This document shows positions 28,552-35,163 of a DNA stretch of 44,061 bases, piece after piece (position 1 is the stretch's first letter; each line of letters begins with the position of its first letter). The notes below the pieces were generated by a model. The model searched no databases. It was not told the DNA's origin and saw only the letters and a program-made list of their open reading frames with translations. Where the stretch lies: contig JAIUMB010000002.1 of NCBI GenBank assembly GCA_022565745.1, forward strand, positions 1 through 44,061. Reading direction: 5' to 3'. The translations under genes were made by a program, and so were the position numbers. The stretch is from Cryomorphaceae bacterium (GTDB lineage Bacteria; Bacteroidota; Bacteroidia; Flavobacteriales; Schleiferiaceae).

Positions 28552-28809
28552 CTACTTATCTAGCAAACGAAAGTCTTCTCTTCCTTTTAGTCCCCACTTT
28601 TGATAAAGCGGTTTTTCTAAGTGGAATTCGCGATACTCATCGGGATTCATTATTGGTAATCCGCGGACAATTGGGTACACCCGCTGGCAGTCTTTACAAG
28701 TGAAATAGCCCTCTATGATGTCGCCTTCGGGGTCACGGGTTACGATGTCTAAATTTAAGTCTGACTTGTCGAATGGACAGCAGAGTTTTTCTATGGTTTC
28801 CGGTTTCAT
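28552..28809 (-). CDS. Trm112-like/UPF0434-type zinc-ribbon protein
   Basis: The 85-residue protein starts IEKLCCPFDKSDLNL and continues YFTCKDCQRVYPIVRGLPIM, the Trm112 pattern. Cys sits at 10, 11, 38 and 41, but the second ligand of the first pair, normally CPxC, is Asp14, so metal binding may be atypical. In eukaryotes and archaea Trm112 binds and activates SAM methyltransferases. Here it ends an operon that begins with a class I methyltransferase. It lies 37 bases after the ThiE-like gene. A role as methyltransferase partner is inference. Confidence 0.82.
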   Translation of the reverse strand: MKPETIEKLCCPFDKSDLNLDIVTRDPEGDIIEGYFTCKDCQRVYPIVRGLPIMNPDEYREFHLEKPLYQKWGLKGREDFRLLDK

Positions 28810-28846
28810 TGTATCTTATTTTTTCAGGGGTTAGTGGTTGGCTTAC

Positions 28847-29458
28847 TTATTTGATGGCTTCTGTATATTCGTTGATGGCCTTCTCTATATCATCGGCATC
28901 CATGATGCCTGATACAACGGCTACACCATTGAAGTCAAGTGTTTTTAGTTTTTGAACGGTTTCTGAATTGATGCCGCCGGCCAAAAAGATTGGCATATTT
29001 GTCATTGCTCGCGCTTGTCGAATACTGTCAAAACTTACCAACTCACAGCTGTTGCTGGTCGACGACGGGAATACCGAACAAAAAGATATGTAGTCAAAGT
29101 GGTTGTCAATAGCCCATGATATAACGCTTAAGTCATTGTTGCAGGTAATGCCTTTAATGCAGTTATCGGGTAATTGGTTGACGACGTCGGGCTTGGGGAT
29201 GTCGTCAAAATGAATCCCATCAAAAGGGTGTGAGTTTAGAAGGTCTACTCGATTGTTGATGATGAATGGTGTGTTGTTTAGACGGGTGATTTCAGAAAGT
29301 TTTACAAATAGCTTGTTCGCATTCTCAACCTGTGATAAATTGTCCCATACTTGTACCGCAGCTAAGCCGGCACTTGTTGCAGCGGTAACTTTTTCAATAA
29401 GCTCATCTCGCTTCATCGAAGGGTCTATTACCAAGTATACGCCATTTGAAATATTCAT
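28847..29458 (-). CDS. ThiE-fold protein lacking pyrophosphate-binding residues
   Basis: The 203-residue TIM-barrel protein is related to thiamine phosphate synthase: INNRVDLLNSHPFDGIHFDD corresponds to the ThiE NDRVDVA...GVHLGQ stretch, SVFPSSTSNSCELVS to its phosphate loop, and LAGGINSETVQKL to the GGI loop. Key residues are changed. The canonical VQLREK is VQVWDN (35-40), so its Arg and Lys are gone, and the Lys of the TSTK loop is replaced (TSN). It may have a different substrate. TPP-riboswitch control fits a thiamine-linked role. The TenI group is an alternative relationship. Confidence 0.8.
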   Translation of the reverse strand: MNISNGVYLVIDPSMKRDELIEKVTAATSAGLAAVQVWDNLSQVENANKLFVKLSEITRLNNTPFIINNRVDLLNSHPFDGIHFDDIPKPDVVNQLPDNCIKGITCNNDLSVISWAIDNHFDYISFCSVFPSSTSNSCELVSFDSIRQARAMTNMPIFLAGGINSETVQKLKTLDFNGVAVVSGIMDADDIEKAINEYTEAIK

Positions 29459-29509
29459 TTTTTTGTTTGATTAATTGGTATGAGACAGCACAACACTGAC
29501 GAATAAATT

Positions 29510-30562
29510 TTATTTCCAGCCTTTATTAAGCGCGGTAAAAAACGCTGCCCAATATGGATCTTCATCGCGGTATTGGTATGCTGCTGTGGAACGGTGGGGG
29601 TGGTGTAAGCGCACGCCGACTTCTGCTGAAAAATGACCGACGATTGTGGCGGGGATGTCGTTCTCATTGAGGTGTTGACAAAGCGATTTAGCCGCATTTT
29701 TTTCCACACTCATCAGCATAGATCCAGCGCCAATACATTCGGCAGGGTTGAGTGCAAACAGCTCGCAAATGGCTTGCTGGTCTTCGCCAATAGGCATGAG
29801 TTCAAGATTGATTTCGGCCCCAAGTTCAGATGCGCTTGCCATTTCAAAAATGGCCCCCAATACACCACCTTCGGTTACATCGTGCATGGCGTGTAAGGAT
29901 GTGGAAAAATGCGTTTTTGCCAGTAATGCTTCCTTCAGCGATGAGGTTTTAAAAAACGAGGCTTGTAGTCGGTCGCAGACGTCCTTGCCGAGTTTATCGC
30001 TTACGGTTTTTGGAAAACACCCGGCCAAAATAGCCGATGTGCTCAATGCACATGATTTTGTAACGACAATGGCGTCGCCTTCTTGCGCATGCTTTGCAAC
30101 TAGAATTTCACTCAATGGGGCTATTGTATTGATGGTGACACCCCCGGCAATGGTCGAGTTTTGGCCTTCAATAAAACCGGTATGACCGCCGGTTATCGAT
30201 AAGTTTACGTCTTTGCAAAAACGATGAATATGACCCCAATATTCGGAAAAGTCTTCTGGGCTCATGTGACTCGGCAGGTTGAGCACGAATTGTGCGTATT
30301 GAGGTGCAAATCCAGTGGTGGCCATGTCGTTAACGGCTAGGTGTACCGATAGCCAAGCGGATTTTTCTAACCCCAAAATTGGAATAAGAGAAAGCGGATC
30401 GCTGGTAGACGCCAAGCCCAAGTTGTTGCCTATATCAACGACGGAAACATCTACGCCAAACGCCGGTTCAACCAAAACGTTTTTACGCAAAGCACCCAAT
30501 TGTGTTTGTACGACCGATTGAAGCGTGGTGGCATTGATTTTACCTAGATTGTGATCTGCCAT
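29510..30562 (-). CDS. AIR synthase-related (PurM/ThiL/HypE-fold) protein
   Basis: The 350-residue protein has the PurM-superfamily layout. The N-terminal ATP-binding half contains TSDPLSLIP and the helix LSVHLAVNDMATTGF, with D55 and N78-D79 at metal-site positions, and a GGHTGF loop. The C-terminal half contains MHDVTEGGVLGAIFEMASAS. Relatives include ThiL (thiamine-phosphate kinase), HypE and SelD. The TPP riboswitch upstream and the ThiE-like gene downstream favour a thiamine-phosphate-type kinase, but the exact reaction is not proved. It lies 135 bases after the methyltransferase and 52 bases before the ThiE-like gene. Confidence 0.85.
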   Translation of the reverse strand: MADHNLGKINATTLQSVVQTQLGALRKNVLVEPAFGVDVSVVDIGNNLGLASTSDPLSLIPILGLEKSAWLSVHLAVNDMATTGFAPQYAQFVLNLPSHMSPEDFSEYWGHIHRFCKDVNLSITGGHTGFIEGQNSTIAGGVTINTIAPLSEILVAKHAQEGDAIVVTKSCALSTSAILAGCFPKTVSDKLGKDVCDRLQASFFKTSSLKEALLAKTHFSTSLHAMHDVTEGGVLGAIFEMASASELGAEINLELMPIGEDQQAICELFALNPAECIGAGSMLMSVEKNAAKSLCQHLNENDIPATIVGHFSAEVGVRLHHPHRSTAAYQYRDEDPYWAAFFTALNKGWK

Positions 30563-30697
30563 GACGTAAATATTTAAAATTACAGCTTGAATTTATGTCT
30601 GTTGTGTATGGGCTGCTTAGTTCGAGAGTAAGGCTTGCGGTAGTTGGTAGCCTTGTGTATTCAAATGCAGCCAACGGATTTTACAGACGGACACTAA

Positions 30698-31408
30698 TTA
30701 GTCTTCTAATTTGACATAAAGACCAAAAAAGTCGCCATAAGGGAGGTTCCATTGTTGGACGGGAAACCACTTTGGCAGCCCGGTACAGGTCCAGTAAATG
30801 GTGTAATTTCGGCCTTGAAGTGCTTCGTGGATGATGCTTTTTAGCATAGACGGTGTGTAGAACGTAGCCGTTACGTAGAAGGGGTTTTTGCCAAAAAGTT
30901 GCTGCACCCGCCTTCTCAGTACTTTGGGTGAGTTTCTATTCATCATGCCCATGGCTATGCCATGACGGGCTACCCGTGCAGCTTCGCGTATTACTTGCAC
31001 GGGATCTTTGTAGTATTCAAACGTGGTGATAAACGCCAATGCATCAAAGGTGTTGTCTTTAAACGGCATATGGTGTGAATCGGCCATCACCAAGTCGCCT
31101 TCAAACAAGTGAATGGCCTGAGAGAGCATCAAGGGAGAGATGTCACCTCCAGTGGCTTTGATGCCTATTTCTTTCCACCACCGGGTAAATCGGGTGGTGC
31201 CACAGCCAAATTCGAGCAGTGTTTCTACCCTTTGGTCGCTTTTTACCAGTTGCTCCATGACTTTTTTCTGCCATATTTCAGCACGCTTGTATCGACCTTC
31301 GTACCACTGTTCGTACGTATCGGTATGTTCGCGGTTAAAAAACCACTCTTCTCTATTTTGCCAGTTTTGTTGATTTTGGGGAATCAGAACGGTATTTTGT
31401 CTTTCCAT
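30698..31408 (-). CDS. Class I SAM-dependent methyltransferase under TPP riboswitch
   Basis: The 236-residue product has the Rossmann SAM site: motif I LLEFGCGTTRF (64-74), acidic motif II ending GGDIS (D89), then MADSHHMPFKDNTFDALAF and a YYKDPVQVIREAARVA helix. The N-terminal cap (WFFNREHTDTYEQWYEGRY) is aromatic-rich. Methyl acceptor is unknown. Its leader carries a TPP aptamer and the start codon lies inside a possible switching hairpin. It is first in an operon with AIR synthase-like, ThiE-like and Trm112-like genes. The TPP link makes a thiamine-related methyl acceptor worth considering. Confidence 0.88.
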   Translation of the reverse strand: MERQNTVLIPQNQQNWQNREEWFFNREHTDTYEQWYEGRYKRAEIWQKKVMEQLVKSDQRVETLLEFGCGTTRFTRWWKEIGIKATGGDISPLMLSQAIHLFEGDLVMADSHHMPFKDNTFDALAFITTFEYYKDPVQVIREAARVARHGIAMGMMNRNSPKVLRRRVQQLFGKNPFYVTATFYTPSMLKSIIHEALQGRNYTIYWTCTGLPKWFPVQQWNLPYGDFFGLYVKLED

Positions 31409-31469
31409 TGGTTGGGCTGTGTTTACTGAGTAATGCCAATGAAGACTATGATTTCACCCCTGTGAAGTC
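31406..31469 (-). promoter_or_regulatory. Expression platform with alternative pairings at the start codon
   Basis: The RNA segment TTGGCATTAC (31439-31430) can pair perfectly with aptamer core GTAATGCCAA (31492-31483), extending to about 14 bp with wobbles. The overlapping segment CATTGG (31441-31436) can instead pair with CCAATG (31411-31406), which includes the AUG. A further 8-bp hairpin lies at 31469-31450. There is no T tract, which suggests a translational switch. Confidence 0.6.
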
Positions 31470-31471
31470 CA

Positions 31472-31546
31472 GCATCCCTACGTTGGCATTACCCAAATCA
31501 GGTTAAACGGGTATTTTCTCAGCCAATGCATTTTGGCACCCCGTGC
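31472..31546 (-). ncRNA. TPP riboswitch aptamer (THI element)
   Basis: On the minus strand the sequence has the classic order: ACGGGGTGCC (31544-31535), GGCTGAGA, ACCCG, ACCTGATTTGGGTAATGCCA and CGTAGGGA. Short P1 closes with GCA (31546-31544) and TGC (31474-31472). It matches the TPP aptamer consensus CUGAGA and ACCUGAUCUGGAUAAUGCCAGCGUAGGGA. It should bind thiamine pyrophosphate and control the methyltransferase operon. Confidence 0.95.
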
Positions 31547-31551
31547 GTTTG

Positions 31552-31559
31552 CAAATGTA
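31552..31559 (-). promoter_or_regulatory. -7 box directly before the riboswitch
   Basis: TACATTTG fits TAnnTTTG and ends about 5 bases before the aptamer, so transcription should start right at P1. No clear -33 was seen. Confidence 0.55.
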
Positions 31560-31609: not shown

Positions 31610-34600
31610 TTAATACTTGACCAAACGCACGGTTTTTTCACTTCCGTTTTCCCAAATGACCCGAAGTAGGTAAACAGCTGCGGGGATATCGCCGGTTTCA
31701 ATTTCCCATTTAGAACCAAAGCCCGACTGAGCGTGCAGTCGTTGACCTTGCATGTTGTAAATGCCAACTTCTTTAATAGGGTCTAGTGATTCGAGCATAA
31801 AGCGTCCTTCGGTAGGGTTGGGGTAAATATGAACCAATGGGTGGGTGTTGCTGTCGGTGGTATTTAAAAAACTGCTGCCTTCAACAGCGATGTTGTTTAT
31901 GTGTATCCTATGTCCGTTGTCGTCTTCCATATTGTCGCCACTAAAACGCAGTCTCACTTTAAAAAACGGATTGTTCGATGCGTCTTGTATCGATGAAAAG
32001 TCAACCTCACACAATCGGTAGTTCTGGTCGATATAAAATGAATCCATTGGCAATCCCCCAGCGCTCCACTGACCATTGGCCCAATATTCCACATGTATGT
32101 AACAACCTTTTGGGAGTTCGGTATTCGCCGCAAAACTAAACATGATATTGCTTTTGCCATCTGTGGGCAGATCAATTTCAATGTGACTGTCTTGATTCTG
32201 GTAGGTAAACGGTTGTCGGAGTTGAATACCGCGCATATCAATGATGTCGTAGGTAAATCCGAAATTTGCCGATGGGCGATAATTGATGGGTGTTCGTTGA
32301 TTTCGGCGCTCCATTGAACCTTTTCTCCAGTTGGGGTGATTGATGGTATATGGGTATCCGCCAAAGCAAGAGTTGAAGCGCATAACGCCATCTTGTCCCG
32401 TGCGTTCAAAGGTAGAAGCCACACTGTCAAGTGGCGTGTTGTTATCAATTCTGCTGTCGAATAACCAAAAATAGATAACCTCTCTAGGGTTATTATCAAC
32501 GGTGAAATTTGCTTGTATGTTTAGGTTGCTGGTTCTTGTAAGTGAAATGGTGTCGTCGTTGCCGGTGACGTCTCCGGACCAATGGGAAAATTCGTAACCA
32601 GGTTTGGCTTTGGCTATAAGCTTAATGGGTATGTTGTTGAAATAAACCCCATCCCATGGATATGGAACTTGAGGTACACCCACGGTGCTTGGTAGAATGT
32701 CTATGGTATTGATTTGGATATATCCGTGGGTTGTGTCGGATACATTTAGCGTTACGTCAAACGTGCCGTTGATATTGAAGTGACTGCGGATTTCATTCCT
32801 TTGACGGGTATGGTGGGCATTGCCCCAGTTGAGAAGTGCTTGTCTTTCAGATTCGAGATAGAAACTACCTCTAGGCGCTCGGTTGCTATCTAAGGCTAAG
32901 TAGGGTTGTACTTCAGCCAAAACGGAGTCGGTAATGGCTTCAAAACGAGTCGGGAGGTAAGCACTGTTGAGCAGGTCGGCAAAGCGATTGATGAAGTCAT
33001 TTTTAAAGTTGTCGTTTTCCAATAAATTTCCAAAAATTGCATCATTGGCATTAAGGAGCCCTGCCCAGTGGGTCAGCCAGTTTCGATCATCGAGAAGCGA
33101 TTGTTCAAAATCTTGCGTATACATGCGCCACTTTCCGTCACCATATTCCGGGTTTTCCTTATCCCGTACTTTCCAAAAGCTTCTTTCGTAATGGGTATCG
33201 CCAGAGTACACTTGCAATACCATGTGGTCGATGAATGACTTCATGCACAGTCTGTCGGCCACGTATTCGAAGTTTGTATCGATAGATAAATCGGTATTGA
33301 TGATGTGATTTCTAAAGCTGTTGTATTCGCTCAAGTCTCCGGGATTTCCAATTTCTAAATGACAAACGGAACGTCGACATTCCACTTCTATAATATTATC
33401 AGCCGAAACATTGTAATTGGTCGACCAGTGAAATTGATCAAATCTATCTCGTATGGCGGTTATGCCCCAATACTCGCCATTGATAAAATGTACCGCTGGT
33501 TTTATCCGAGTTATGCCTTTAAAAAGAGGCTGCATCAATCGATTAAACACCACATCATTGTAAATTGGCCCACCGGCACCATCTCCTCTCAGCATGATGC
33601 GTTTATACTTTGTGTTTTCTGGACGTCGAGAGTCGGTTACTTTTTCATCAAAGAGATCATGATCAAATTCGTTTTTTTCATCGTAGATGTTTCGTGCGTA
33701 AAGTCGAAGATTTTTGATGATGCGATTGCGTGAAAAGTTACCGTGTATACGAAACCCTGCATTTTGACTGATAACTTGGCTAAAATTGTTGGGTTCAAAA
33801 AACTCCACGTGAAGTGGGTATTCCCACGCAGGACCTCTACGCCAATAATTGCCGTACATTGGGCGTTCGGGACGGCCAGCTGTAGGATTGTTGTTTCTCC
33901 AAGTGTCAAATGTAATTCCTGCTGTGTAGATGCCAGTATAGTAGTCAAATAAATAGTTATGTTGAATTTTTAGTGAAATAATCGGGACATCAAAGGGGTT
34001 TCCTTGAGGCCAAACAAAATAAGTGGCTGATACTTCGCTGGACTCTAGATTGTTATTAAAGGCTTTTACTCTAATAACCGTTCCTTTAGGAACTGGATTG
34101 GGCGGAAAGTACATGGGGTGCTGTCGCGGGTTGAAATGCGTGAAGAAGTCGGGCTCAGGTGATCGGTCGTAAATGTGAATGGCGCTGTCGTATACATGTG
34201 AATAATAGGTTGAGTATAATGAATCTCCAACCGGATCACTGGTATAGAACTTATAGTCATTTTTATACATGAAGGTTGTGCCATTCGTATTGTTGATATC
34301 AGGCTCAGAGCCATCAAGGGTGTAGACAATGGTAACCCCTGTGTCTGGATGAGAAAGCGTTAAATAAAAATCTGACGTGTAAAGTCCAGCGGGGTGCGAC
34401 AGTTGAGGTGGGGCAAATAAAGCACTTCTACCATCATCCACATTTGCTGCATCGGGGGTGGGTTGATAGAAATAATGCCAATTGTTGCCACCGTTGGGGT
34501 AGCGACCAAACGACACATTTCTCGTTAAAGTCGTAGGTGGAACAGAGTCAATTCGTATGCCGCCGGGGGCAGAAAGCAGCAGCTCTTCCCCGTCTTGATC

Positions 34601-34936
34601 AATGGAAAAGTTGGTGTGTAGGGGCTGACCTACGATTCGGCGGTTTTTGTTAGACGCCCAAACCAACATGTAGCTTTGAGCAGCCAGTGTGGTGTCGGGA
34701 AACACCCACCGATAGGGCTGTTGGGCGTTATCAGAAAGACCGTAGCCTTCCAAATTAACCGGACTGCTCGTGGGGTTATAAATTTCTATCCAATTGGGAG
34801 AGTCAAAGTCTTCGTCAAATATCCATTCGTGGTTAGACGATGAGAATTCGTTGATGACCAGTTGTTGGGCAATGAGTTGGGCCGAAATCAGCCATAACAA
34901 ACAAAGATATCCAAAATACTTGTAAACCTGCTTCAT
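31610..34936 (-). CDS. Large secreted protein with lamin-tail, CotH and T9SS sorting domains
   Basis: From ATG 34936 the product has 1108 residues with signal peptide ending LIAQQ. Domains in order: lamin-tail domain (about 25-140, VINEFSSSNHEWIFDEDF; WIEIYNPTSSPVNLEGYGLS), chitobiase C-terminal-like module (IVYTLDGSEPDINNT), CotH kinase-like domain (FRIHGNFSRNRIIKNLRLYA; LRGDGAGGPIYNDVVFNRLM), an InlB-like repeat (AKPGYEFSHWSGDVTGNDD) and a T9SS type A domain (VHIYPNPTEGRFMLESL). CotH domains can be protein kinases; activity here is not tested. It is probably a surface protein. The frame extends to 34990, but the inner ATG gives the signal peptide. Confidence 0.9.
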   Translation of the reverse strand: MKQVYKYFGYLCLLWLISAQLIAQQLVINEFSSSNHEWIFDEDFDSPNWIEIYNPTSSPVNLEGYGLSDNAQQPYRWVFPDTTLAAQSYMLVWASNKNRRIVGQPLHTNFSIDQDGEELLLSAPGGIRIDSVPPTTLTRNVSFGRYPNGGNNWHYFYQPTPDAANVDDGRSALFAPPQLSHPAGLYTSDFYLTLSHPDTGVTIVYTLDGSEPDINNTNGTTFMYKNDYKFYTSDPVGDSLYSTYYSHVYDSAIHIYDRSPEPDFFTHFNPRQHPMYFPPNPVPKGTVIRVKAFNNNLESSEVSATYFVWPQGNPFDVPIISLKIQHNYLFDYYTGIYTAGITFDTWRNNNPTAGRPERPMYGNYWRRGPAWEYPLHVEFFEPNNFSQVISQNAGFRIHGNFSRNRIIKNLRLYARNIYDEKNEFDHDLFDEKVTDSRRPENTKYKRIMLRGDGAGGPIYNDVVFNRLMQPLFKGITRIKPAVHFINGEYWGITAIRDRFDQFHWSTNYNVSADNIIEVECRRSVCHLEIGNPGDLSEYNSFRNHIINTDLSIDTNFEYVADRLCMKSFIDHMVLQVYSGDTHYERSFWKVRDKENPEYGDGKWRMYTQDFEQSLLDDRNWLTHWAGLLNANDAIFGNLLENDNFKNDFINRFADLLNSAYLPTRFEAITDSVLAEVQPYLALDSNRAPRGSFYLESERQALLNWGNAHHTRQRNEIRSHFNINGTFDVTLNVSDTTHGYIQINTIDILPSTVGVPQVPYPWDGVYFNNIPIKLIAKAKPGYEFSHWSGDVTGNDDTISLTRTSNLNIQANFTVDNNPREVIYFWLFDSRIDNNTPLDSVASTFERTGQDGVMRFNSCFGGYPYTINHPNWRKGSMERRNQRTPINYRPSANFGFTYDIIDMRGIQLRQPFTYQNQDSHIEIDLPTDGKSNIMFSFAANTELPKGCYIHVEYWANGQWSAGGLPMDSFYIDQNYRLCEVDFSSIQDASNNPFFKVRLRFSGDNMEDDNGHRIHINNIAVEGSSFLNTTDSNTHPLVHIYPNPTEGRFMLESLDPIKEVGIYNMQGQRLHAQSGFGSKWEIETGDIPAAVYLLRVIWENGSEKTVRLVKY

Positions 34937-34956
34937 GTGTTCATATGATGAACGTA

Positions 34957-34964
34957 CAAAGTTA
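34957..34964 (-). promoter_or_regulatory. -7 box of the CotH/T9SS gene
   Basis: TAACTTTG fits TAnnTTTG and ends 20 bases before ATG 34936, which supports that start over the one at 34990. No -33 match at the usual distance. Confidence 0.45.
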
Positions 34965-35163
34965 CAAATAAAAGTTTGTCGCATCTTCACTATTCAGCTA
35001 ACTAAGCGTTAGAGACGTGTTGCTGTAAAAACCATTTAGTTCATTTGTAATCACTGAATCAAAGCGTACCTCGGCACTCCAGTACATGTATGCGAAGCTC
35101 TCCATGTCCTGTGCGCGCGTAGTGCAACTGAGCCAGCGACAGTGCTCCTGAGCTTTTTAACCC

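Follow-up and report, generated by a model that had tools for sequence, protein, structure and literature searches.

TPP riboswitches can act on either transcription or translation, and the mode used in Bacteroidetes is described as uncertain in a study of Bacteroides thetaiotaomicron (PMC5613172). The riboswitches of that species share phylum and ligand class with the one considered below, but they control thiSEGCHF-tenI, OMthi, and pnuT-tnr3 and not the operon examined here (PMC5613172). Bacteroidetes lack Shine-Dalgarno sites, and the structure of the start region tunes initiation in these bacteria (PMC6847099). Among the closest described mechanisms is that of the Escherichia coli thiC riboswitch, in which a TPP-bound stem holds the start codon and, without ligand, the aptamer is disrupted by a competing strand (PMC5234074). 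Both features are predicted for our leader; however, thiC hides the RBS also and uses an anti-P1 stem, whereas here the competing strand would pair with the P4/P5 region and the AUG itself is the predicted target. Dual transcription/translation platforms, which combine a terminator with a hidden initiation region, have likewise been described (Barrick and Breaker, 2007; PMC2258182) and are a close counterpart of the orthologous leaders analyzed below. Such platforms have the RBS in the terminator 3' arm, whereas in the orthologs the AUG is usually paired by a distinct strand located 5' of the terminator, and our leader has no terminator. A search of the open-licence literature found no report of AUG sequestration by Bacteroidota riboswitches, nor any account of this operon with a TPP riboswitch.

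Here, we describe a leader in a 44,061-nucleotide stretch of a Cryomorphaceae genome (referred to throughout as the window). It is likely to be a TPP riboswitch whose platform switches translation OFF, an interpretation proposed in an initial annotation and supported computationally by the pairings themselves, by their mutual exclusion, and by start-codon pairing in orthologs. The case provides a concrete, testable answer, for one operon, to the question of how Bacteroidetes TPP riboswitches work, and it shows a way in which translation could come under riboswitch control with no Shine-Dalgarno site to hide. It also offers hints for the phylum in the form of a covarying start-codon pairing, often in series with a terminator.

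The Leader and Its Operon

The elements of the locus are as follows, in the direction of transcription.

31559-31552, minus strand: predicted promoter box TACATTTG, matching the Bacteroidota -7 promoter box TAnnTTTG
31553-31458, minus strand: TPP riboswitch aptamer (RF00059; Rfam cmscan 71.8 bits, model positions 1-105, full length)
31496-31483, minus strand: aptamer strand UUGGGUAAUGCCAA, target of the anti-aptamer strand (14-bp helix, 0/3000 shuffles)
31446-31436, minus strand: anti-start strand GUCUUCAUUGG, whose CAUUGG pairs with CCAAUG
31439-31426, minus strand: anti-aptamer strand UUGGCAUUACUCAG of the predicted ON state, which is paired when the free leader is folded to minimum energy
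31411-31399, minus strand: 3' arm CCAAUGGAAAGAC containing the AUG, with two bulged bases
31408-31406, minus strand: methyltransferase start codon; start and first residues match orthologs
31408-30698, minus strand: first operon gene, encoding a class I SAM-dependent methyltransferase (Pfam Methyltransf_11, E 3.7e-18)
30562-29510, minus strand: AIRS-superfamily ATP enzyme resembling HypE, SelD, and ThiL without reaching the cut-off of any of them
29458-28847, minus strand: ThiE-like protein with QxW replacing the QxR motif (PF02581, E 7.3e-31)
28809-28552, minus strand: Trm112-like protein (PF03966; NF038101 below cut-off)

The aptamer scores above the RF00059 gathering score of 54.3 bits and is the sole Rfam match in the whole 44-kb window. 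The initial annotation had called a clear TPP aptamer at 31546-31472, and on re-reading of the minus strand all of its coordinates and complements were found to be right. The RNA is predicted to bind TPP. The promoter box would place the transcript start at about the 5' edge of the aptamer; the -33 box is weak. A match to the -7 motif lies no more than 45 nt before GGGGTG in 28 of 56 non-redundant orthologous leaders, against 1.6 expected from mononucleotide shuffles. The distance from aptamer to AUG, 68 nt, is the shortest of the set, the other leaders having mostly 75-125 nt. No Shine-Dalgarno site was seen in the window leader, and its overall folding energy is ordinary relative to shuffles (z -0.87).

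The order methyltransferase - AIRS - ThiE-like - Trm112 (28552-31408, minus strand) is kept in orthologous loci with enough flank; here and in the orthologous loci L062-L164, these genes make up a conserved operon under a predicted TPP riboswitch, which would tie it to thiamine status. The methyltransferase resembles the BUD23 type and the 18S rRNA guanine-N7 methyltransferase chains 7wtw_q and 6g4w_q. BUD23 and Trm112 form a pair, and by analogy the methyltransferase and the Trm112-like protein of the operon may pair up as well. The ThiE-like protein has conserved cysteines (SFCS, NSCELV), and the Q and W of its Q-x-W, which stands where ThiE has Q-x-R, are invariant in 79/79 orthologs; it is unlikely to be a regular thiamine-phosphate synthase. 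The genes behind the aptamer include ThiE-like and ThiL/HypE-like members. A true ThiL of this genome is on contig 203, and neither ThiC nor any other ThiE was found in the assembly (88% complete), so the organism may depend on external thiamine or its precursors. A link between the operon and absence of ThiC was considered and dropped, ThiC being present in 1/24 genomes with the operon vs 5/32 without, which is no clear contrast. The gene upstream of the leader (31610-34990, minus strand) encodes a large protein in which CotH and lamin-tail domains are accompanied by a sorting tail for type IX secretion.

Two Predicted, Mutually Exclusive Folds

The initial annotation had described TTGGCATTAC (31439-31430) as a perfect complement of GTAATGCCAA (31492-31483) in the aptamer core. 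This holds, and the helix is longer than was claimed: UUGGGUAAUGCCAA and UUGGCAUUACUCAG form 14 bp with G-U pairs counted and a stacking energy of -23.6 kcal/mol, a value reached in 0/3000 dinucleotide-shuffled platforms. The complementarity of CATTGG (31441-31436) to CCAATG (31411-31406), with the ATG at 31408-31406, was likewise confirmed. As an ungapped helix, UUCAUUGG/CCAAUGGA, it comprises 8 bp at -12.3 and is reached by 74/3000 shuffles; with two bulges it extends to 11 bp, GUCUUCAUUGG/CCAAUGgAAaGAC, pairing 31446-31436 with 31411-31399. The start codon itself is backed by homology (MERQNTVLIPQNQQNW in the window, MEKENTVLIPQNQQNW in the orthologous locus L062). By itself, the start helix is only modestly above chance in the window sequence, and the two helices jointly were matched by 0/3000 shuffles. 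Under a looser duplex score that allows loops, 147/5000 shuffles reach the anti-aptamer helix, 287/5000 the start helix, and 12/5000 both.

The strands share only 4 nt, 31439-31436, and the mutual exclusion that had been proposed is borne out. In constrained folding, a check suggested along with the initial annotation, enforcing the aptamer gives the start hairpin a probability of 0.98 and leaves the AUG 2% unpaired; enforcing the anti-aptamer helix reduces the hairpin to 0.00 and leaves the AUG 31-41% unpaired across three different 3' ends, so that the start codon is only partly free in the predicted ON fold. Left unconstrained, the leader is predicted to form the anti-aptamer helix but not the start hairpin. 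In a model that includes neither ligand nor tertiary contacts, this ON fold lies 11.5-12.5 kcal/mol below the ligand-free aptamer fold, and at equilibrium the gene would probably stay ON. With folding favouring ON by about 12 kcal/mol, switching would have to be co-transcriptional, TPP needing to bind before 31439-31426 is transcribed. Ligand binding before a competing strand has been transcribed is common riboswitch logic.

The proposed sequence of events would then run as follows. Transcription would begin close to the aptamer. When TPP is scarce, 31439-31426 would pair with the P4/P5 region and dismantle the aptamer, leaving the start region largely single stranded (ON). When TPP has bound before 31439-31426 emerges, the aptamer would hold and 31446-31436 would be free to close over 31411-31399, burying the AUG itself (OFF). 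TPP binding by this RNA, the co-transcriptional timing, and the effect on ribosomes are inferred.

Start-Codon Pairing in Orthologous Leaders

Close relatives of the methyltransferase are sparse in Bacteroidota, occurring in 13/396 genomes of the phylum, with strong matches in 5/88 genomes of the window's own family. From a species collection 80 loci were kept, and 97 orthologous leaders were extracted, 56 of them non-redundant. A TPP aptamer lies upstream of the methyltransferase gene in nearly all loci with enough upstream sequence; L127, L130, and L145 fell outside the pattern search, yet carry TPP-like sequence by eye.

For each leader we took the score of the best platform-to-start-region helix, and we then exchanged platforms between leaders. 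For the 56 non-redundant leaders the mean was -11.44 with their own platforms vs -9.45 when swapped (z -8.4, 0/5000 permutations), and with the helix forced to include the whole AUG the difference persisted (z -6.5, 0/300). The start-codon pairing thus covaries in homologous leaders, so the absence of covariation that the initial annotation had named as refuting does not apply to this pairing. At most flanking positions of the helix several standard pair types occur, as in L088 (AUCCAUUUUAUA/UGUAAAAUGGAU), L149 (UGCUUAUUGCA/UGCAAUGAGCA), L066 (CUCCAU/AUGGAG), and L099 (UUCCAUUUUGU/ACAAAAUGGAA), where the AUG is 156 nt from the aptamer core. A two-dimensional map, in which source windows are counted from the aptamer and target windows from the AUG, has just two foci. 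One is the start codon (z to -6.9), with its source at about +6 to +48, and the other is the terminator stem (z to -5.2). Accessibility of the AUG was 0.24-0.25 with the true platform vs 0.38-0.40 with shuffled ones. Across this leader family, start-codon sequestration is therefore supported as both conserved and covarying, and the matched base changes that preserve the pairing across Bacteroidota leaders suggest a way in which such switches could work without Shine-Dalgarno sites. Several leaders without a terminator (e.g., L068-L076) gave no strong start pairing.

The anti-aptamer pairing is less amenable to swapping (z -2.8), which is uninformative because the aptamer strand hardly varies; compared with shuffles, core-platform helices in the orthologous leaders are stronger (z -4.8 and -4.0). 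UUGG was considered as a conserved anti-aptamer motif and rejected, having no enrichment over dinucleotide shuffles (22 vs 20.9 expected; 8 vs 7.1). In most orthologs the anti-start element is located just 3' of P1, outside the anti-aptamer strand. The window, where the two overlap directly, is thus one particular version of the theme, and its exact arrangement was seen in none of the other leaders.

Transcriptional or Translational Control

About two thirds of the orthologous leaders (58-66/97) carry a hairpin and U tract between aptamer and AUG, the range reflecting two terminator scans, the first of which chose the wrong hairpins in some leaders while the second recovered several and missed others. 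In the stricter scan the terminator 3' end is a median of 23 nt before the AUG. With a terminator this frequent, the usual ortholog switch is probably dual, joining termination to start sequestration. An alternative for the window is attenuation, in which TPP would bring about intrinsic termination within the leader, following the pattern of most orthologs; L062, the sister of its methyltransferase gene, is among those with a terminator. The window leader, though, has no U tract after the hairpin, in keeping with the absence of a T tract noted in the initial annotation, and repeated terminator scans found nothing between aptamer and AUG, which makes attenuation very improbable here. A different route is offered by E. 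coli thiC, which combines start-codon sequestration with pausing and Rho (PMC5234074); by analogy, a TPP-dependent block of translation might be followed by Rho-dependent termination or mRNA decay that does most of the work, which we consider unlikely for the window.

The start-codon hairpin might instead be uncoupled from the aptamer, acting as a constitutive damper of translation or reflecting chance pairing. Coupling is not evident in most orthologs because the anti-start and anti-aptamer elements do not overlap there, and the window start helix alone would arise by chance in 2.5% of shuffles. That the start pairing covaries across orthologs nevertheless speaks against this reading, and in the window the strands overlap and either fold precludes the other, so we regard an uncoupled hairpin as having little probability. 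The predicted window switch is thus translational only, by sequestration of the AUG.

On the methyltransferase tree, whose terminator labels are those of the first scan, the window gene is sister to L062, a gene from a Cyclobacteriaceae MAG (99/85), and stands apart from other genes of its own family, with many weak forks. The operon has probably moved between families and, since L062 has a terminator, the window lineage probably lost or replaced one. Origin of the short leader by a deletion running from the ATGGAG of a terminator arm to the start-codon ATGGAA, an idea prompted by the 68-nt distance, was set aside as speculation, the window and L062 platforms being too different by eye to demonstrate it. 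The only nearby terminator-like hairpin on the minus strand is upstream of the riboswitch (31584-31568), between it and the CotH/lamin-tail gene. In the terminator-bearing leaders L062-L114, the anti-start element UUCCAUUUU, just 3' of P1, is similar to the 5' arm of the terminator CUCCAUUC, as is the start codon context AAAUGGAA to the terminator's 3' arm GAAUGGAG; the two 5' and two 3' elements could trade partners.

Other TPP Leaders of the Phylum

A further 104 Bacteroidota TPP leaders were collected, many of them before TonB-dependent receptors. Among the 75 non-redundant ones start-region pairing was again the signal (z -5 to -6.2), weakened because gene starts were assigned mechanically. 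TonB-receptor leaders of the window's own family have hairpins with the AUG in the 3' arm, for example L017 (UUCGUGAUAAGA/UCUUAUCAUGAA) and L015 (CUUGUGAUUAAC/GUUAAUCAUGAG), and an AUG-only test on eleven own-family leaders gave z -2.6 (1/300). In some deeper lineages a GGAG-type site is paired instead of the AUG.

These results indicate that start-codon sequestration is probably common in the phylum. A broader generalization, which we find plausible and still fall short of calling probable, is that in Bacteroidota, without Shine-Dalgarno sites, TPP riboswitches would as a rule target the AUG via a dedicated anti-start strand, which would act either by itself or in series with a terminator that the anti-start/start pairing encloses. 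The window leader would then be a reduced form, with the terminator gone and the anti-start and anti-aptamer strands merged. The window's own genome has a second, weaker TPP aptamer (L002; contig 104, 622-695; 39.5 bits) before a TonB-receptor-like gene, with a possible start helix AUUCAUUU/GAAUGAAU.
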